NCBI GenBank assembly: GCA_023263845.1
Contig: JALQUH010000227.1
Location: forward strand, 1-44,955
Length of the DNA: 44,955 bases
Direction of reading: 5' to 3'
Source: Candidatus Nanopelagicales bacterium
GTDB taxonomy: Bacteria; Actinomycetota; Actinomycetes; S36-B12
Positions 1,714 to 38,903 of the stretch are shown here, piece after piece. Both the position numbers and the translations under genes were made by a program. Within the stretch, counting starts at the first letter, position 1. Each line of letters begins with the position of its first letter. The notes under the pieces were generated by a model that was given only the letters and a program-made list of their open reading frames with translations, was not told the origin of the DNA and did no database searches.

Positions 1714-2997
1714 ATGCGCGCATACGATCCCGCGCTCGATGCCGGTGATACCGGATGGCGCGACGAGTTCTGCATGCCGCCCTTCGAGGGCGACGCGGGC
1801 GCACCCGGAGCCGCGTACCCGCAGGTCGCCTACTTTGCGGGCAATTCCCTCGGTCTGCAGCCACGCGCTACCGCGCCCGCGCTCCAGATCGAACTCGACC
1901 GCTGGGCGCAGATGGGTGTCGAGGGTCAACTGAGTGGGCCAAGGCCATGGAAGGACTACCACGAGGCGCTCGCGGGCCCCGCTGCCCGGCTCGTCGGGGC
2001 ACTCCCCCACGAAGCCGTGATCATGAACTCGCTCACCGCAAACCTGCACTTCATGATGGCGACGTTCTATCGACCCGAAGGGCGTCGTACGAAGATCGTC
2101 ATGGAGGACATCGTCTTCCCGTCGGATGGCTACGCAATGGCCTCCCAGGCCCGCTGGCATGGCCTTGACCCGGCCGAGCATGTCCTGCGCCTTCGACCAC
2201 GCGAGGGCGAGGACGTGTTGCGCACTGAGGACGTGGTGTCGACGATTCACGAACTCGGCGACGAGGTCGCCATGGTGGTCTTCAGCGCCGTCAACTACCT
2301 CACGGGCGAGTGGATGGACATGCCCACGATTACCGCTGCCGGACATGAGGTCGGCGCCATCGTGGGCTGGGATCTTGCCCACGCGGCCGGCAACGTCCCG
2401 ATGTCCCTCCACGAGTGGGGTGTCGATTGGGCCGCCTGGTGCAACTACAAGTACGTCAACTCCGGCCCTGGCGCGCTGGCCGGCTGCTTCATCCACGAGC
2501 GCCATGCGCGCAACACCGGGCTGCCGCGCCTTGCTGGATGGTGGGGTACCCGGACAGAGACACGCTTCCGCATGGAGCCCACCTTCGATCCGCCGCCCAC
2601 CGCCGACGCATGGCAGGTGTCCAACCCCCCCATCTTCGCGATGACCCCGGTGCAAGTCTCCCTCGACATCTTCGACCGCATTGGCATGCCGACCCTGCGC
2701 GCACGCAGTCTGCGTCTTACCGACTATTTGCGTGAACTTCTCACCGAGGTGATCGAGGGGATGCCGCCAGGCAGTTTGCAGATCGTCACTCCCGAAGAGC
2801 CTGAGCGGCACGGCTCTCAACTTTCACTGCGCTTCACCGCAGATATCGGGGTCTTGGCCGACACGCTTCGTGACCTCGACGGGGTCGTGGCCGATACACG
2901 CAACCCCGACATCATCCGGTTCGCACCCACCGCCCTGTACTCGAGCTATCTCGACTGTTGGCGTGCTGCCGACGCACTCCGGAGGCGACTTGACTGA
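1714..2997 (+). CDS. kynU: Kynureninase
   Basis: PLP enzyme that cleaves L-kynurenine or 3-hydroxykynurenine to anthranilate or 3-hydroxyanthranilate plus alanine. A 427-residue fold-type I aminotransferase-like protein. Seen: AYFAGNSLGLQP near the N-terminus, the PLP-pocket stretch GWDLAHAAGNVPMSLHEWGVDWAAWCNYKYVNSGPGA with the Schiff-base Lys in NYKY, and IRFAPTALYSSYLD near the C-terminus (FAP.PLY.SY family pattern). The ATG at 1714 is preferred over the far upstream ORF start because GAGGA lies 7 nt before it and the upstream codons overlap the dioxygenase gene. An in-frame GTG at 1708 is a possible alternative. Since the operon also encodes a 3-monooxygenase and a 3-hydroxyanthranilate dioxygenase, 3-hydroxykynurenine is the likely substrate. 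Confidence 0.93.
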   Translation: MRAYDPALDAGDTGWRDEFCMPPFEGDAGAPGAAYPQVAYFAGNSLGLQPRATAPALQIELDRWAQMGVEGQLSGPRPWKDYHEALAGPAARLVGALPHEAVIMNSLTANLHFMMATFYRPEGRRTKIVMEDIVFPSDGYAMASQARWHGLDPAEHVLRLRPREGEDVLRTEDVVSTIHELGDEVAMVVFSAVNYLTGEWMDMPTITAAGHEVGAIVGWDLAHAAGNVPMSLHEWGVDWAAWCNYKYVNSGPGALAGCFIHERHARNTGLPRLAGWWGTRTETRFRMEPTFDPPPTADAWQVSNPPIFAMTPVQVSLDIFDRIGMPTLRARSLRLTDYLRELLTEVIEGMPPGSLQIVTPEEPERHGSQLSLRFTADIGVLADTLRDLDGVVADTRNPDIIRFAPTALYSSYLDCWRAADALRRRLD

Positions 2998-3769
2998 GAT
3001 TCGACGTCTTCGTGAGGCCTACGGTCCTGGCGAGCGTCAGTTCGGGGACTGGTTCCTGCCCGACCGCCCAGGCGCCCCGCTCGTCATCCTCATCCACGGC
3101 GGTTACTTCAGGCCGACCTACCATCTCGACATTGAGGAGCCGAGTGCCGTGGCTCTGGCACAGGCGGGCTTTGCCGTGTGGAGCATCGAGTACCGCACCT
3201 ACGAGTCGGGCTGGCCGGCCACCTTTGAGGACGTGGCGGCTGCCGTCGAGTACGGTGTACAGCGCGCCGTGGAGCACGGCGTGGACGCCAGCCGCAAAGC
3301 CCTCTGCGGACACTCCGCGGGGGGTGCTTTGGCGCAGTGGGTCACGTCTCGGCGACACCTGCCGGCGGGCGCTCCCGGCGCCAACCCGCAGGCGGCCTCA
3401 TTCGATCTTGTGGTGCTGTCGGCTCCCGTGGCCTGTCTCACCCTTGCCAGCACCGACCACCTCGGCAACGGCGCCGTGGACACTCTCATGGGTGGTCGCC
3501 CGGAGGATGTGCCGGATCGCTACGACATGGGCGATCCGGCCCTCCTTACCCCCGACCCGGGACGTCGGCTCATCCTGCATGGCGATGCCGACGTCGACGT
3601 ACTCATGACGCAGAGCGAGTGCATTCGAGATCACCTCGTGGAGCACGGCATCGATGTCGAGCTGATCGTTCTGCCCGGAGACGACCACTTCCGCATCCTG
3701 GACCCGACGAGCGAGGTGTCGCTGCTGCGGCAGCAGGCCCTCGCCGCCGCGCTCACGCTCCAACGCTGA
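2990..3769 (+). CDS. Kynurenine formamidase, alpha/beta-hydrolase type
   Basis: Hydrolyses N-formylkynurenine to kynurenine and formate. This is the alpha/beta-hydrolase (eukaryotic AFMID/BNA7-like) type, not the metal-dependent KynB type usual in proteobacteria. The 259-residue product shows the oxyanion motif HGGYF (36-40), nucleophile elbow GHSAGG (Ser109), an Asp in HGDADVDV (about 203) and His233 in GDDHF. The start is a TTG at 2990 overlapping the kynU stop by 8 nt, with GGAGG 4 nt before it; the ORF-track Met at 2870 lies inside kynU. Function rests on context plus the HGGY/GHSAGG signature. A generic carboxylesterase cannot be excluded, but no other formamidase is present in the operon. 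Confidence 0.85.
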   Translation: MTEIRRLREAYGPGERQFGDWFLPDRPGAPLVILIHGGYFRPTYHLDIEEPSAVALAQAGFAVWSIEYRTYESGWPATFEDVAAAVEYGVQRAVEHGVDASRKALCGHSAGGALAQWVTSRRHLPAGAPGANPQAASFDLVVLSAPVACLTLASTDHLGNGAVDTLMGGRPEDVPDRYDMGDPALLTPDPGRRLILHGDADVDVLMTQSECIRDHLVEHGIDVELIVLPGDDHFRILDPTSEVSLLRQQALAAALTLQR

Positions 3770-31089: not shown

Positions 31090-32334
31090 GTGTCTACTCC
31101 CCTGGCGGCCGCTCCGGCCGGGCCGCGAGTGCGCACCTATCCCATCAGTGATCCGGGCCGCCTACTTGAGCGTCTGCCCGCCGAGCCCAGCGCCGCCTGG
31201 GTCCACCGCGGTGAGGGCCTGGTCGGCTGGGGAGTTGCCGCCTCCTGGGAGGTCACCGGCGACGAGCGCTTCAGCCGGACTCAGCGGCAGTGGAGCGAGT
31301 GGTGCCAGCGAGCACAGGTCGAAGACCCGCTGGAGATGCCGGGCAGCGGACCGGTGGCCTTCGCCACCTTCACCTTCGACCCCGAGCCCACTTCGGGGGC
31401 TCGCTCGCTCGTCGTGGTCCCCCGGATCCTCGTCGGCCGACGCGATGGGCACTCCTGGGTCACCGTGGTGGGTGACGGAGAACCCACGCTCCCGCCCGTG
31501 GCCGTACCCGAGCCTCCGTCGCAGGTCGATTGGTCGCGCGGAAGTCGCACATCTTCGGAGTGGGAGGCTTCCGTCGCCGAGGTCATCACTCGGATAGCCC
31601 GAGGCGAACTGGACAAGGTGGTGCTCGCACGCGACATCGTCGCCGAGCTGGGCACGAACTTCGATCCGCGCTACCTGCTGCTCCGGCTCGAGGACGCCTA
31701 CCCCGAATGTTGGACCTTCCATGTCGGCAACATGGTGGGAGCGACCCCCGAACTCCTAGTACGGCGCACCGGCGATGACGTTCTGTCGCGAGTCCTTGCG
31801 GGCACCGTCAAGCGGCGCGGTGAAGACTCCGTCGATGCCTCGCTAGCCCAAGCCCTTCTCGGCAGCGGCAAGGACCTCGAAGAGCACGAGTACGCCGTCC
31901 ATTCGGTGGCGCGCGCTCTTGCCGCGCATTGCACCGACCTTGATGTGCCCGACCGCCCGCATGTGCTGCGTCTTGCCAACGTCCAACATCTCGCCACCGA
32001 CGTCACCGGACGTCTCGCAGACGATGCTCCCGTTGTGGCTCTGGCCGCGTCGCTTCATCCCACGGCCGCCGTCTGCGGCACGCCCACCGAGCGCGCCCTG
32101 GCCACCATTCGCGAGATCGAGGGTATGGACCGCGGCCGCTATGCGGGGCCCATCGGTTGGTTCGACTCACGCGGTGACGGCGAGTTCGGTATTGCCTTGC
32201 GCTGCGCAGAGATCGGTAAGGATCGTCTGCGACTCTTCGCAGGCTGCGGAATCGTTGCTGGCTCCGATCCCGAAGCCGAACTTGCCGAATCGCGGGCCAA
32301 GTTTCTGCCGATCCGACAGGCGCTCGGCGACTGA
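31090..32334 (+). CDS. menF: Isochorismate synthase
   Basis: Converts chorismate to isochorismate, the entry step to menaquinone. The 414-residue chorismate-binding protein has ARGELDKVVLARDI (general-base Lys), GATPELLVRR, HPTAAVCGTP, GRYAGPIGWFDSRGDGEFGIALR and LFAGCGIVAGSDPEAELAES with the Mg-binding Glu. Salicylate and anthranilate synthase components share this fold, but menD is in the same cluster and no glutamine amidotransferase partner is present. GTG start at the leaderless promoter. It is followed 24 nt later by the TetR-ACT-GNAT gene. Confidence 0.92.
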   Translation: MSTPLAAAPAGPRVRTYPISDPGRLLERLPAEPSAAWVHRGEGLVGWGVAASWEVTGDERFSRTQRQWSEWCQRAQVEDPLEMPGSGPVAFATFTFDPEPTSGARSLVVVPRILVGRRDGHSWVTVVGDGEPTLPPVAVPEPPSQVDWSRGSRTSSEWEASVAEVITRIARGELDKVVLARDIVAELGTNFDPRYLLLRLEDAYPECWTFHVGNMVGATPELLVRRTGDDVLSRVLAGTVKRRGEDSVDASLAQALLGSGKDLEEHEYAVHSVARALAAHCTDLDVPDRPHVLRLANVQHLATDVTGRLADDAPVVALAASLHPTAAVCGTPTERALATIREIEGMDRGRYAGPIGWFDSRGDGEFGIALRCAEIGKDRLRLFAGCGIVAGSDPEAELAESRAKFLPIRQALGD

Positions 32335-32346
32335 GCCGGCACCACC

Positions 32347-32352
32347 TAGGCT
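32347..32352 (+). promoter_or_regulatory. -10 box of a leaderless promoter for the TetR-ACT-GNAT gene
   Basis: TAGGCT, six nucleotides (GACGTC), then ATG at 32359. It gives the gene its own promoter just after menF. Confidence 0.6.
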
Positions 32353-32358
32353 GACGTC

Positions 32359-34053
32359 ATGTCGGACGAGGCGTCACGGGAGCGTCCGCTACCGCGCGTC
32401 GAGCGCGAGCGTCGCGAGCGCATTCTCGCTGCCGCGACCGACCTTTTCGAGACGGCCGGCGTCGCTGAGACGTCACGACGTGACATCGCGCACGCCGCTG
32501 ACGTCGCTACACGCTCGGTGACGTCCTGGGCCTCGTCACGTACTGACGTCCTTGCGCGTGTCGTCGCAGCACTCCCCTTCCCGCCCACCTCACAACGCAT
32601 CCAGGAAGTCGACGACGCGGCATCGCCCATGACGACCATCCTCACCGCGGCGCGCGATGCCTTTGGCGCTCCAGCGTCGGTGTGGGATGACATTGAGTTA
32701 CAGGCCGTCGCCCTGGCCCCGTTTGACGATGAGCTCGCGGCCGTCGTGCGCCAGCGCATGGCCATGCGATGGGAGGCCGCGCACAACGTCGTCCGACGAC
32801 TGCGCGGTGAAGGAGCGGTCGACGCAGCCATCGATGATGACGCGGCGACGCTTCTGGTCATCGCTGTCGGCGCCGGCCTAGCGCTACTCGACGGCCTCGT
32901 ACCGCGAAGTGCCGATGCGCAGGCATGGTCACGGTTGACCGCCCGACTGCTGGAGTCACTCGCGGCCGCTGACCCGCCGGAGTTGGACTACGACGGGCCG
33001 ACCCGTCCCATGCGTGTTCGCGTCGTCGCCCCGGATAGCCCGGCGGCGACCGCCCGGGTCCTGCGCGTGCTGGCGCTCATGCGTGTCGACCTGATTTCCC
33101 TGTTCACCCACGCGCAGGAAGACGACACCCAACTCGTCGACATGATCGTCTCCGTCCCGGAGGGCATGGACCGTGGCACTCTGCGCCAGGCACTCGCCAC
33201 GGTCGCCCACCGAACCAGCGTGCGGCGCGGCTCGGAGGAGGACGAGGATGACCTGGTGGCGAGGATCCTCGACGCCTCGGCCCAGCTCGTCGCCCATCCG
33301 CAACGCGCTCCACGTGCCGCAGCCGATCTCGTCATGGCCGATTCGTGGACCGTGGAGCCGGCGACCTCCGGTGAGGACGCCGGACCCAACGTCATGCGCC
33401 TGCAGTGGACCCCGGAGCATCACGTGGTCCTGCGGCGGGCGGGGGCGCCGTTCGCCGCGGTGGAGCGGGCCCGCGCATCCGCCCTTCTGCGTCTTGTCGA
33501 GCAGATCGCATCTGCCCCGGCCGGTGCCGGCGGCTTCGGCTGGGTCGAACATCTGCGGGATGGTTCACGCGTCGAGATTCGCCTCGCCCGACCGGAGGAC
33601 TCCGACGATGTCGAGGACATGCACGAACGCTCGTCGGAAGCCACCCGCTACCAGCGATACTTCGCCCCGATGAACGATTGGCGTGTCGACCAGCTCAGTC
33701 GAATCTCTGGCGGTCACCGGGGCGCAACACTCGTCGCGCAGGATGCGACGGGTCAGGTCATCGGCCTGGGCAATCTCTTCCCCGAGCACCCGGACGACAC
33801 GAGTACCGCCGAGATCGCCGTCATCGTCGAAGATGCCTGGCAGGGGCTCGGACTCGGCACCCTGCTGCTTGCGCACCTCACCGAACTTGCACGGCGCCAA
33901 CGATTCACGGCCTTGACGGCTCTGGTGCTGGCCACCAACACCGGCATGATCCAACTGCTCGAACGTCTGGACCTGACCTGGACCAAGCAGACCGATCCCG
34001 ATCTCGGCGCCGGCATCGTGCGCCTGAGCGCCGACCTCGGCGAGGGCTCCTAG
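32359..34053 (+). CDS. TetR-ACT-GNAT three-domain fusion protein
   Basis: A 564-residue protein with three recognisable parts. Residues about 16-70 are a TetR helix-turn-helix (RRERILAAATDLFETAGVAETSRRDIAHAADVATRSV), with a helical effector domain to about 200. Residues about 216-285 look like an ACT domain (MRVRVVAPDSPAATARVLRVLALMRVDLISLF, then LVDMIVSVPEG). Residues about 403-560 are a GNAT acetyltransferase resembling actinobacterial Pat-type enzymes (RYQRYFAPMND; acetyl-CoA loop WQGLGLGTLLLAHL at about 494-507; LATNTGMIQLLERL). ACT-GNAT amino acid-regulated lysine acetyltransferases are known in actinobacteria; an added TetR part is unusual to my knowledge. The frame is continuous with no sign of frameshift. 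Target genes and substrates are unknown. Its stop shares CTAG with the stop of menD on the other strand. Confidence 0.82.
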   Translation: MSDEASRERPLPRVERERRERILAAATDLFETAGVAETSRRDIAHAADVATRSVTSWASSRTDVLARVVAALPFPPTSQRIQEVDDAASPMTTILTAARDAFGAPASVWDDIELQAVALAPFDDELAAVVRQRMAMRWEAAHNVVRRLRGEGAVDAAIDDDAATLLVIAVGAGLALLDGLVPRSADAQAWSRLTARLLESLAAADPPELDYDGPTRPMRVRVVAPDSPAATARVLRVLALMRVDLISLFTHAQEDDTQLVDMIVSVPEGMDRGTLRQALATVAHRTSVRRGSEEDEDDLVARILDASAQLVAHPQRAPRAAADLVMADSWTVEPATSGEDAGPNVMRLQWTPEHHVVLRRAGAPFAAVERARASALLRLVEQIASAPAGAGGFGWVEHLRDGSRVEIRLARPEDSDDVEDMHERSSEATRYQRYFAPMNDWRVDQLSRISGGHRGATLVAQDATGQVIGLGNLFPEHPDDTSTAEIAVIVEDAWQGLGLGTLLLAHLTELARRQRFTALTALVLATNTGMIQLLERLDLTWTKQTDPDLGAGIVRLSADLGEGS

Positions 34054-35690
34054 CCTCGCGCCCGGTCGGCGATCACATTCTCCGTGGCCCGATCCACGCA
34101 ACGAGCCACCACGATCCGAACGCCGTCATGCGGTCCAAGGGCCTCGCGTAGCTCCGTCTCGGTCGACACGGCGCGAACCTCGACGTCCGGCGCGGCGAGA
34201 AGCACGCTCAGGTCAGCCGAGAGGGGTGTGCCGAAGACACGTTCGAAGTCTTGAGCAAACGCCGGCGCCCCCTGCTCGAGCGAACTGAAGATTCCACCAC
34301 CGTCGTTGTCGACCACGACATACGTCAGGGTCGGTCGCGGCTCGCTCACCGGCGCGAGCAGGCCGTTGCGGTCGTACACCGCCGTGAGATCACCGAGCAG
34401 GGCGTACGTCCGTGCACCGCCGCCAGCACGGTGCGCTACGGCAGCACCCCATGCCATGGAGACCACACCGTCGATGCCGGACGTTCCACGATTGGCCAAA
34501 CAATGGGCCCGGATCGGACCACCGAACTCGCTGAGGTGTCGGATGGGCCACGACGCACCGACGATCAGCAGATCACGCGCGTCGACGTGGGAGGCCAGTA
34601 TGCGGGCAACCACCGGTCCCGTAAGCGGAGCCTGCGACAACACCGCAGCAACACGGTCCGACCGCGCCCGGTCCAACCTGCGCCAGTCATTCATCCACTG
34701 TGGGTCACTCGCCTCGGTAACCCCTATGGGCACCGCGTCGACGATGACGCTTGCCGTGCGGGCCGGATCCACTCGGCCACGTCGTGGGGCCACATCCACC
34801 GCGATGTGCACGGGCACTTCACGCACCAGACGCATGATGCTGCGATGCAGTCCAATCCGTCCGACAGAGACGACGACGTCGGGCCGCATCTCGGTGAGCA
34901 CGGTCGGGTCACCGAGCAGGAGGGGACCGTGCACCAAAGACTGCGGCGTTTCGGTGAGATTGCCGCTTGGTTCGCTGATCACCGGCCAGCCCATCGTCTC
35001 GGCGAGCTCACGAGCCTGCCCCCGCAGATCGTCGTCCAGTCCGTCTCCGACGATGAGCAACCCCCGGCGTATATCGGCATCACCGGCCATCTCGACGAGT
35101 GGCCGACGGGCTCGGGCCAACGCTGGCGGCGTGGCCCACGTCGTCACCGGTCGTATGACGTGCTCACCCTCGGCCACGAGCGGTTCGCCGAAGGAAACGT
35201 TCAGGTGCACCGGGCCGTGCTGCGCCATTGCCGACGTCACCGCGCCGATGACGGGATCGAATTCGTCCTCGCTCGTGCCATCAAGATCGATCGTCGAGGC
35301 GTCAATTCCGAAGAGCGCGCGCTGATCAATGGTCTGATTTGCACCGCTCCCCCGCAGGGCGGCAGGTCGGTCAGCGGTGACCGCGATCAAAGGCACACCG
35401 AGGTAGGCCGCCTCGACGATGGCCGGATGCAGATTGACAGCGGCCGTTCCCGAGGTCGTGATGACGGCGACTGCCGTGCCGGAAACTCGCGCAAGTCCCA
35501 ACGCCAGGTATCCGGCCGAACGTTCATCGATGCGCACGTGCAGACGGAGCAGCCCTTGCCGTTCGGCGTCGGCGGCGGCCAGGAGCAAGGGCGCCGACCG
35601 CGAGCCGGGCGCCGCGACGACATGGCGAACACCGGCCGCTAGCAGTGCCTCGACCAGACGAGCGCCGCGCTGAGGCGAGGACGTACTCAC
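34050..35690 (-). CDS. menD: 2-succinyl-5-enolpyruvyl-6-hydroxy-3-cyclohexene-1-carboxylate synthase
   Basis: TPP enzyme joining isochorismate and 2-oxoglutarate. The 546-residue protein has HVVAAPGSRSAPLLLAA and RIDERSAGYLALGLAR at the N-terminus (the Glu/Arg site of MenD), TSGTAAVNLHPAIVEAAY, SGANQTIDQRALFG, and the TPP motif LLGDLTAVYDRNGLL followed by VVVDNDGGGIFSSLEQG. GTG start at 35690, 13 nt after the menC stop. It uses 2-oxoglutarate, the likely substrate of KorAB, so the two compete for one pool. Confidence 0.94.
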   Translation of the reverse strand: MSTSSPQRGARLVEALLAAGVRHVVAAPGSRSAPLLLAAADAERQGLLRLHVRIDERSAGYLALGLARVSGTAVAVITTSGTAAVNLHPAIVEAAYLGVPLIAVTADRPAALRGSGANQTIDQRALFGIDASTIDLDGTSEDEFDPVIGAVTSAMAQHGPVHLNVSFGEPLVAEGEHVIRPVTTWATPPALARARRPLVEMAGDADIRRGLLIVGDGLDDDLRGQARELAETMGWPVISEPSGNLTETPQSLVHGPLLLGDPTVLTEMRPDVVVSVGRIGLHRSIMRLVREVPVHIAVDVAPRRGRVDPARTASVIVDAVPIGVTEASDPQWMNDWRRLDRARSDRVAAVLSQAPLTGPVVARILASHVDARDLLIVGASWPIRHLSEFGGPIRAHCLANRGTSGIDGVVSMAWGAAVAHRAGGGARTYALLGDLTAVYDRNGLLAPVSEPRPTLTYVVVDNDGGGIFSSLEQGAPAFAQDFERVFGTPLSADLSVLLAAPDVEVRAVSTETELREALGPHDGVRIVVARCVDRATENVIADRARG

Positions 35691-36731: not shown

Positions 36732-37676
36732 TTATGGGCGCTTCGGGAAAGCGCTGAAGTCCGGACGGCGGCGTTGGGCATAGGCGTCACGGCCCTCTTG
36801 CGCCTCCTCGGTCATGTAGAACAGCAGCGTGGCATCCCCGGCAAGTTGTTGGACCCCGGCAAGGCCGTCGTCGGCGGCATTGTGCGACGCCTTGAGCATG
36901 CGCAACGCCATGGGTGACAGGCTCAGCATCCGCTGAGCCCACGCGACGGTCTCGCGTTCGAGGTCGGCGACTGGAACTACCGCGTTGACCAAGCCCCAGT
37001 CATAGGCCTGCTCAGCGCCGTACTGGTTGCACAGCATCCACACCTCACGCGATCGCTTCTGACCGATGCTGCGGGCAAGGAGGCCGGAGCCGTAGCCGCC
37101 ATCGAAGGAGCCGACCATGGGCCCGGTCTGGCCGAACCGTGCATTGGACCCGGCAATGGTGAGGTCGCAGACGACGTGGAGGACGTGGCCACCACCGATG
37201 GCATAGCCGGCCACCATGGCAATGACAGGCTTGGGCGTGCGGCGAATTTGAATCTGCAGGTCGAGAACGTTGAGTCGACCGATCCCCTTCTTGGCAACTT
37301 CGTCGTCTCCGATGTAGCCGTCGTCGCCGCGGATCATCTGATCTCCGCCGCTGCAGAACGCGAAGTCGCCCTGACCTGTGAGGATGATCACTCCCACGCT
37401 GTCGTCGTCTCGGGCCTGGTTCATCGCATCGGAGATCTCGAAGAGTGTCTGGGGGCGAAAGGCATTGCGCTTGTGCGGTCGATTGATGGTGATCTTCGCG
37501 ATCCCCGCCGCATCGCCGGTGGACAACTCATAGCGAATATCGGTGTAGTCCCCGACGCTCTCCCAGGTGCAGGCCGGCTCGATGCTGGAGTAGGTCGGAT
37601 CCTGCAGGGCCGGGCTGCCCTCAGGGACCACGGGCGGTAGCGAATACCTCGTCCGTGAGTCGAACTCGTGCGCCAC
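36732..37676 (-). CDS. menB: 1,4-Dihydroxy-2-naphthoyl-CoA synthase
   Basis: Crotonase-fold enzyme that closes the naphthoate ring from o-succinylbenzoyl-CoA. The 314-residue protein has [85 protein letters not shown] and [11 protein letters not shown]. It has the longer N-terminus typical of actinobacterial MenB. GTG start at 37676 with GGAGGGAGG 6 nt upstream. First gene of the menB-menC-menD unit and divergent from menE. Confidence 0.96.
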
Positions 37677-37709
37677 GGGGCGCCTCCCTCCGGTCGTCGC
37701 GATGCGTCC

Positions 37710-37715
37710 AACCTA
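37710..37715 (-). promoter_or_regulatory. Candidate -10 box for menBCD
   Basis: The minus strand reads TAGGTT about 34 nt before the menB GTG. It sits back to back with the menE -10 box in the 60-bp divergent gap. Confidence 0.35.
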
Positions 37716-37723
37716 GTGAGCCC

Positions 37724-37729
37724 TACGCT
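37724..37729 (+). promoter_or_regulatory. -10 box of a leaderless menE promoter
   Basis: TACGCT, seven nucleotides (CGGGTGC), then ATG at 37737. The core CCTACGCTC is identical to that before menF. Confidence 0.6.
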
Positions 37730-37736
37730 CGGGTGC

Positions 37737-38903
37737 ATGCGCGGCCTGCGAATCATCGACGCGGCACCTGGAGAGACGGGTGCCCTGATGCTGCAGGAAG
37801 CCCTACACCAGCGGCTCTTCGGCGACGGTCCGGCCGTCTCCGCCGTACCCGAGCCATCTCGACATGTCACGGCCACCTACGCGGCGGCGGCCCACGCGGC
37901 CGTTGCCGCAGATCCCGGCGGCGTGCCTGGTGATGTCGCCGTCGTCGTCGCCACCAGCGGGTCAACCGGTCGACCGCGCGGCGTGCTCCTCACCGAGTCC
38001 AACGTGAAGTCCGCCGCACAACGTGCCGACCTCGCCCGCCCCGGACTTGCCACCTGCGCATGGATCCTCGCCCTGCCGGTCACGTCTGTGGCGGGCCTCA
38101 ATGTGGTCGCTCGCTCGCTACTCGCCGATTCACCACTCGCTGTGCTGCCCAGCGTCGGGGGCTCGACCACCTTCGATCCGGCCGACCTGCTCGCGCTGGA
38201 GGTGACCGAACCCTTCGCGGTCTCCCTCGTGCCGTCGCAACTGCGCCTAGTCGTCGAAAACGTTGACGCGACGCGGTTGTTGTCCGCGGCGCACACAGTG
38301 CTCGTCGGAGGGGCAGCAACCGACCAGACTCTCCTTGACCGCGCTCGTGCCGCCGGCATCCCGGCTGTGTCCACGTACGGCATGACCGAGACAACCGGCG
38401 GCTGTGTGTTCGATGGCATTCCGCTCCCGGACGTGCGGGTTTCCACCGACGACACCGGCCGAATCAGCGTGAACGGCCCGACCATCGCGGCCGGCTACCT
38501 CAGGCCTGGGCCGGACGACGGGTTCGCGGCGGACGGTGGGTTCACCACGGGCGATGTCGGTCGGTGGGACGGACAGCGCCTCGTTGTGTTCGGTCGCGCG
38601 GACGACATCGTCACGGTGCACGGAGTGAACGTTTCCTTGGGCGCGATCGAGCACCTGCTGCTGCGCGGAGAGGACGTACGAGAGGCCGCGGTCGTCGCCG
38701 TCTCCGATCCGGCCAGCGGTAGTCGACTCATCGCCTACGTCGTCCTCAACGGTGACACTTCGACGAGTCCCGTTGACCTTGCTGACGCCGCGCGCGAGCA
38801 ACTCGGCGGTGCGGCTCGGCCCGAGGTCGTTCGGGTCGATGAGCTGCCACACCTACCCAATGGCAAGATCGACCGTCTCGCGTTGCGCAACGCGGGCGCG
38901 TGA
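37737..38903 (+). CDS. menE: o-Succinylbenzoate--CoA ligase
   Basis: AMP-forming ligase that activates o-succinylbenzoate. The 388-residue protein is a short ANL-family enzyme: ATSGSTGRPRGVLLTESNV (P-loop), VSTYGMTETTGGCVFDG (A5 motif), GDVGRWDGQRLVVFGRADDIVTVHGVNVSLGAIE (hinge) and the C-terminal catalytic Lys in PNGKIDRLALR. The N-terminal domain is shortened compared with enterobacterial MenE, as in other actinobacteria. The ATG at 37737 is preferred over the upstream ORF start, which overlaps menB. Its stop lies just before the menA start. Confidence 0.93.
   Translation: MRGLRIIDAAPGETGALMLQEALHQRLFGDGPAVSAVPEPSRHVTATYAAAAHAAVAADPGGVPGDVAVVVATSGSTGRPRGVLLTESNVKSAAQRADLARPGLATCAWILALPVTSVAGLNVVARSLLADSPLAVLPSVGGSTTFDPADLLALEVTEPFAVSLVPSQLRLVVENVDATRLLSAAHTVLVGGAATDQTLLDRARAAGIPAVSTYGMTETTGGCVFDGIPLPDVRVSTDDTGRISVNGPTIAAGYLRPGPDDGFAADGGFTTGDVGRWDGQRLVVFGRADDIVTVHGVNVSLGAIEHLLLRGEDVREAAVVAVSDPASGSRLIAYVVLNGDTSTSPVDLADAAREQLGGAARPEVVRVDELPHLPNGKIDRLALRNAGA

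Follow-up and report, generated by a model that had tools for sequence, protein, structure and literature searches.

Within the 44,955-nucleotide stretch of Candidatus Nanopelagicales DNA analysed here (hereafter the window), one gene encodes a TetR-fused variant of the actinobacterial ACT-GNAT acetyltransferases and, judged from its sequence and that of its homologues, the fusion is real and inherited. The TetR part appears to be the addition to the known ACT-GNAT layout and the variant appears undescribed, since no TetR-GNAT or TetR-ACT-GNAT protein was described in the open-access literature searched. We propose that the protein is probably an AAPatA-like lysine acetyltransferase of AMP-forming acyl-CoA ligases, with MenE as prime candidate, whose DNA-binding arm would report the same state.

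Features of the TetR-ACT-linker-GNAT gene and its men neighbours (window positions)
Feature	Position	Strand	Basis
-10 element TAGGCT, separated from the ATG by 6 nt; putative leaderless promoter of the gene	32347..32352	+	Sequence; spacing in homologues
TetR-ACT-linker-GNAT gene, 564 aa	32359..34053	+	ORF listing and translation; full-length homologues
TetR helix-turn-helix, residues 17-68 (helices 13-32, 40-47, 51-57)	32407..32562	+	Pfam TetR_N; AF2; dN/dS 0.074
TetR C-terminal helical (dimerisation/ligand) domain, residues 69-205	32563..32973	+	Profile against TetR structures; AF2 all-alpha
ACT domain, residues 213-292; ligand-loop motif 226-231 DSPAAT, not DxPGxL	32995..33234	+	Profile-profile; AF2; Foldseek; alignment
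AAPatA-type linker domain, residues 293-398, most conserved part	33235..33552	+	Profile-profile E 3.5e-13; identity in pairs
Pat-type GNAT, residues 399-560; Glu485 catalytic, QGLGLG 495-500	33553..34038	+	Pfam; NCBIfam Pat; PDB PatZ/SlPat/Rv0998
menF, isochorismate synthase, conserved upstream neighbour	31090..32334	+	NCBIfam names; synteny
menD, convergent neighbour, 4-nt overlap with the gene's stop	34050..35690	-	NCBIfam names; synteny
menE, OSB-CoA ligase, candidate substrate, PX4GK as PHLPNGK	37668..38903	+	NCBIfam names; motif; BsMenE precedent (PMC11619455)

The reading frame runs on the forward strand from the ATG at 32359 to the stop at 34053 with no internal stop, exactly the single unbroken frame of 564 codons that a first-pass annotation of this DNA had read, and its placing of TetR, ACT and GNAT modules on one polypeptide is supported by profiles and homologues, with significant profile matches for both TetR and ACT in the family. 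Could a frameshift or an assembly error have fused two genes? The window protein comes from one MAG contig and its TetR_N match, taken alone, lies under the cut-off. However, full-length unbroken homologues occur in many genera and several families, so that we reject such an artefact, whose probability is practically negligible. The nearest named relative (L031, JAURFD010000010.1, from a 'Candidatus Nanopelagicales' MAG) is 87% identical to the window protein, and every domain of the family is under purifying selection.

The architecture is rare and clade-centred. In the order, a match at E <= 1e-40 is present in 45 of 166 genomes (21 of the 80 good ones), which belong to three families; a few of these matches are fragments. 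Outside the order but in the same class, homologues are found in families f26 (two copies in genome G077) and f33 (G084). An even draw of 397 genomes across the phylum returned none at E <= 1e-60 besides the window genome.

Actinobacterial AAPatA enzymes have the ACT-GNAT layout (Lu et al. 2017, PMC6434083), and 24 of them use acetyl-CoA synthetase as a substrate and become more active with Asn or Cys (PMC6434083). A class search with a profile of 16 homologues (set A2, also used for the profile comparisons) retrieved many proteins that match positions ~203-540 only, at E values of 1e-40 to 1e-50, and all 17 proteins sampled from these matches carry Pfam ACT and GNAT. This sample, equated with AAPatA by layout and taxon rather than by accession, aligned with the A2 profile over 343 columns at E 3.7e-52. 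Segments were also compared separately so that the GNAT part could not carry the result for the others: ACT against AAPatA ACT gave E 8.7e-13 and linker against linker E 3.5e-13, with crossed controls of unrelated segments at E >= 0.04. The claimed kinship to amino-acid-activated ACT-GNAT enzymes of actinobacteria is thus borne out by ACT and linker, each significant alone. In a tree of the shared part, all TetR-bearing proteins fall on one side of a 100/100 branch, and this single clade is consistent with a single fusion event.

With the AAPatA enzymes MaKat (Micau_1670), SvePatA and AmiPatA (PMC6434083), the window protein shares the ACT-linker-GNAT order, homology in each part, the catalytic Glu and the acetyl-CoA loop, whereas it differs in the additional N-terminal TetR of ~205 aa, in its separate clade and in the change of DxPGxL to DSPAAT. 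Because the Gly of that motif is absent, we file it as a relative or derived variant of AAPatA and not as a plain member. The mycobacterial cAMP-gated Pat enzymes (Rv0998, MSMEG_5458) likewise have a sensor domain N-terminal to a Pat GNAT, and one of them (4avb) is the best Foldseek match by E-value, but their sensor is a cyclic-nucleotide domain and they have no TetR. AcuA, PatZ and SlPat resemble the window protein in GNAT type and in likely substrate class (BsAcuA acetylates MenE), yet they have other regulatory parts or none, and none has a TetR. On the AAPatA side, the proteins of family f24 (L044, L046, L053, L056, L058-L060) have, before the ACT domain, an N-terminal stretch that resembles two hydrophobic, possibly membrane-spanning segments.

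Pfam finds no ACT domain in the window protein alone. Matches in homologues (PF01842/ACT_4/TTHA0829-ACT) occur in 4 of the 16 members of A2, the best (5.1e-6) being that of L040, outside A2. Foldseek with a separate AF2 model of residues 210-398 (pLDDT 86.5) returned the ACT proteins SerB2, aspartate kinase and GcvR; ACT and linker together align to tandem-ACT proteins, yet at ~12 Å rmsd. The whole-chain model has a pTM of 0.56 and does not fix the relative placement of the domains. The linker (33235-33552) is the best-conserved part in most pairs, is common to AAPatA and belongs to no Pfam family.

AAPatA enzymes carry the DxPGxL motif between the first ACT strand and helix (PMC6434083). The window protein and its genus read DSPAAT, ATPAAT or ATPSAT, the conserved Gly being replaced by Ala in the window and by Ala or Ser in the genus, while PG is retained in some TetR-fused relatives (DRPGGL in L040 and L041, ASPGAT in L007, NAPGAI in L014). 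Without this Gly, the ACT domain may bind its ligand differently or not at all, and a ligand pocket might also lie in the TetR C-terminal domain. The amino acid sensing that the first-pass annotation had suggested therefore keeps the support of kinship with amino-acid-activated enzymes but is uncertain, because the Gly of the ACT ligand motif is lost.

The GNAT part is the Pat-like domain with an intact acetyl-CoA loop that had been described. Pfam GNAT matches at E 2.7e-11 and the NCBIfam Pat model (NF058543) at E 4.1e-16, the latter over the GNAT part only and with 58.7 bits against an equivalog cut-off of 460, which it does not reach; the family profile also matches the Pat structures PatZ, SlPat and Rv0998. 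Glu485 aligns with the catalytic Glu809 of E. coli PatZ, and the acetyl-CoA loop reads Q495-G-L-G-L-G500. Glu485, Gly498 and Gly500 are invariant in 30 of 30 aligned sequences, with the Q of the loop changed to H in some relatives. By these residues, the catalytic part looks intact.

Acetylation of Lys52 and Lys62 abolishes DNA binding by the TetR-type regulator RutR (PMC10891134), which raises a further reading in which the GNAT part acetylates its own helix-turn-helix and frees the DNA. The window protein has a single lysine in the whole chain (Lys548) and none in the helix-turn-helix, and two TetR-fused homologues have none at all, so that self-acetylation of the helix-turn-helix is highly improbable and is rejected for the window protein. 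We also rejected the view that lysine depletion (1 in 564 residues) sets this enzyme apart, given that the neighbouring MenD has none in 546. The scarcity is strong in several men enzymes, including MenG (1 in 229). A different composition is seen in the homologue of genome G057 (L016:1261-3102, minus strand), which ends in a C-terminal tail of ~60 residues rich in lysine, alanine and proline, similar to the histone H1-like HC2 (Pfam E 1.1e-4, below the cut-off); this could be an extra DNA-binding or self-acetylated tail on the acetyltransferase.

A complete TetR module spans residues 1-205. On the window protein, Pfam TetR_N scores E 6.5e-5 and 23.1 bits, just below the 24-bit cut-off, and it is found in 13 of the 16 homologues of A2 with a best E of 2.7e-14. 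The family profile aligns beyond the helix-turn-helix with whole TetR structures in the PDB (2nx4 over 6-183, 6srn over 6-189, 2gfn over 6-197). As in TetR repressors, then, the matches cover both helix-turn-helix and C-terminal domain. Unlike in those repressors, a sensor and an enzyme follow, and the helix-turn-helix is weak in the clade and missing in some members. The TetR_N score falls from 53 bits in L017 (53.1, the maximum) through L016 (37), L041 (35), L040 (34), L003 (31), L014 (24), the window (23), L007 (21.5) and L009 (17) to no match in L012, L013 and L015, three genera that lack the helix-turn-helix. A helix-turn-helix hidden in another upstream frame of these genera is rejected, since none was found in any frame of their upstream DNA. 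That DNA reads as the end of menD, and the loss is therefore real. The helix-turn-helix is thus dispensable, having been lost in three genera; these are not shown as sisters on the tree, though the forks there are weakly supported.

This gradient, together with the genuine loss and the retention of the TetR C-terminal domain in all members, argues for a reading in which the TetR part serves only as a dimerisation or ligand-binding scaffold with vestigial DNA binding, so that the protein would be a normal acetyltransferase to which one more sensory domain has been added. Against it, the helix-turn-helix of the window's genus is conserved like the rest of the chain: in the closest pair (window and L002) dN/dS is 0.074 for the helix-turn-helix, 0.065 for ACT and 0.057 for GNAT, values that are rough given the high dS, and the recognition-helix residues ADVATRSV are identical in most species of the genus. 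In this genus, the helix-turn-helix thus seems to be under about the same constraint as the remaining protein, and we consider the scaffold-only reading possible but rather unlikely. What had been annotated as a repressor retains its TetR module, with DNA binding put in doubt by the range of TetR_N scores and the three genera without the helix-turn-helix. Inspection by eye of the menG-menF and menF-gene gaps revealed no common palindromic operator.

The gene appears to have its own leaderless promoter, as the first-pass annotation had held. The spacing of the -10 element is shared widely: in 11 of 18 homologues, exactly 6 nt separate a TAnnnT from the start codon, compared with 0.4% of random window positions for a looser range of 4-9 nt. 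In L017, an ATG two codons past the first candidate start was taken as it fits the spacing, which adds one to the count in favour of the pattern. The pattern speaks for leaderless transcription and for the start codons adopted here.

By NCBIfam names, the annotated position between menF and menD is correct, in the order nuo(-)-menG(-)-menF(+)-gene(+)-menD(-)-menC(-)-menB(-)-menE(+)-menA(+). The same slot is occupied in all f1 loci with enough contig, which represent nine genera (g1, g2, g3, g6, g10, g11, g12, g13 and g5, the last with a gap of 2.2 kb between gene and menF), and also in g27 of f7. Within the slot, the gene is oriented with menF in g1 and g11 and with menD in the remaining f1 genera. 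In two of the three HTH-less genera it starts at the menD stop (the start codon of L013 overlaps it as GTGA, and that of L012 lies 2 nt after it), which ties the enzyme half to men expression. Apart from f1 and g27 of f7, the homologues whose surroundings were examined lie away from men genes, as in G057, G077 (both copies) and G084; in G084, a fragment of an AMP-binding enzyme lies immediately upstream.

Several relatives lack the gene. In G013, G017, G024, G028 and G033 the menF and menD matches are ~50-120 bp apart, while a frameshifted 5' remnant fills the slot in G003 of the window's genus (L117, about 2847-3142, menF on the plus strand) and a short GNAT remnant in G011 of another genus (L123, about 2769-2933, menF on the plus strand). 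These empty slots and remnants indicate an accessory gene that was lost repeatedly and, with menF and menD intact in several of these relatives, one not required for menaquinone synthesis. The non-men contexts, the empty sites and the flipped orientation within the slot would also fit a gene that hitchhikes in a slowly rearranging cluster and acts on unrelated targets, e.g., acetyl-CoA synthetase; the constancy of the slot over nine f1 genera and g27 of f7 and the close joining of the gene's start to the menD stop in two genera speak against this. We regard hitchhiking as a serious possibility, falling somewhat short of an even chance. The suggested link to menaquinone thus keeps its men-locus position and is weakened by synteny in one family and one genus only, by other contexts elsewhere and by intact clusters that lack the gene.

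In the mechanism that we propose for a TetR-fused acetyltransferase, the chain would dimerise via the TetR C-terminal and ACT domains, and a small molecule in the ACT or TetR pocket would set GNAT activity. The GNAT part would use acetyl-CoA to acetylate AMP-forming acyl-CoA ligases on their active-site lysine (PX4GK), the adjacent MenE being the prime candidate along with other ligases of the genome, and an AcuC/HDAC-type deacetylase would reverse the modification. In lineages that bear the helix-turn-helix, the same conformational change would alter operator binding, most simply at the gene's own leaderless promoter.

PX4GK belongs to the A10 motif that AMP-forming acyl-CoA ligases share as a class, so that its presence in the window MenE (PHLPNGK) and most syntenic MenE proteins, with two exceptions (L070 and L073), is weak evidence. 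A precedent exists in B. subtilis, where the GNAT AcuA acetylates MenE on the active-site lysine, impairing the enzyme and lowering menaquinone-dependent growth (PMC11619455). The window genome has 10 AMP-binding frames over the cut-off and an HDAC/AcuC-type deacetylase (G000:C64:273-1166, L116, E 3.2e-84), which together make a reversible system possible. A sirtuin partner is rejected, since no SIR2-family match was found in the window genome (assembly ~93% complete).

The bacterial acetyltransferases known so far have cAMP or amino-acid domains as their gates. Here, one metabolic signal acting on one chain might have two outputs, namely transcription of men or of its own gene through TetR, and MenE activity (hence menaquinone and respiration) through acetylation, an idea that we put forward as speculative and unlikely in its full form. 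If active, the protein would offer a one-protein system in which to ask whether gene expression and protein acetylation answer to a single signal, and the natural HTH-less members would serve as ready-made controls to tell which half counts. It also offers a concrete candidate case in which menaquinone synthesis would be controlled by acetylation, a control demonstrated to date for the B. subtilis MenE. Next to this candidate substrate, the longest frames of menB (-) and menE (+) share 9 nt at their 5' ends (37668-37676), and one of the two starts is therefore probably further in.
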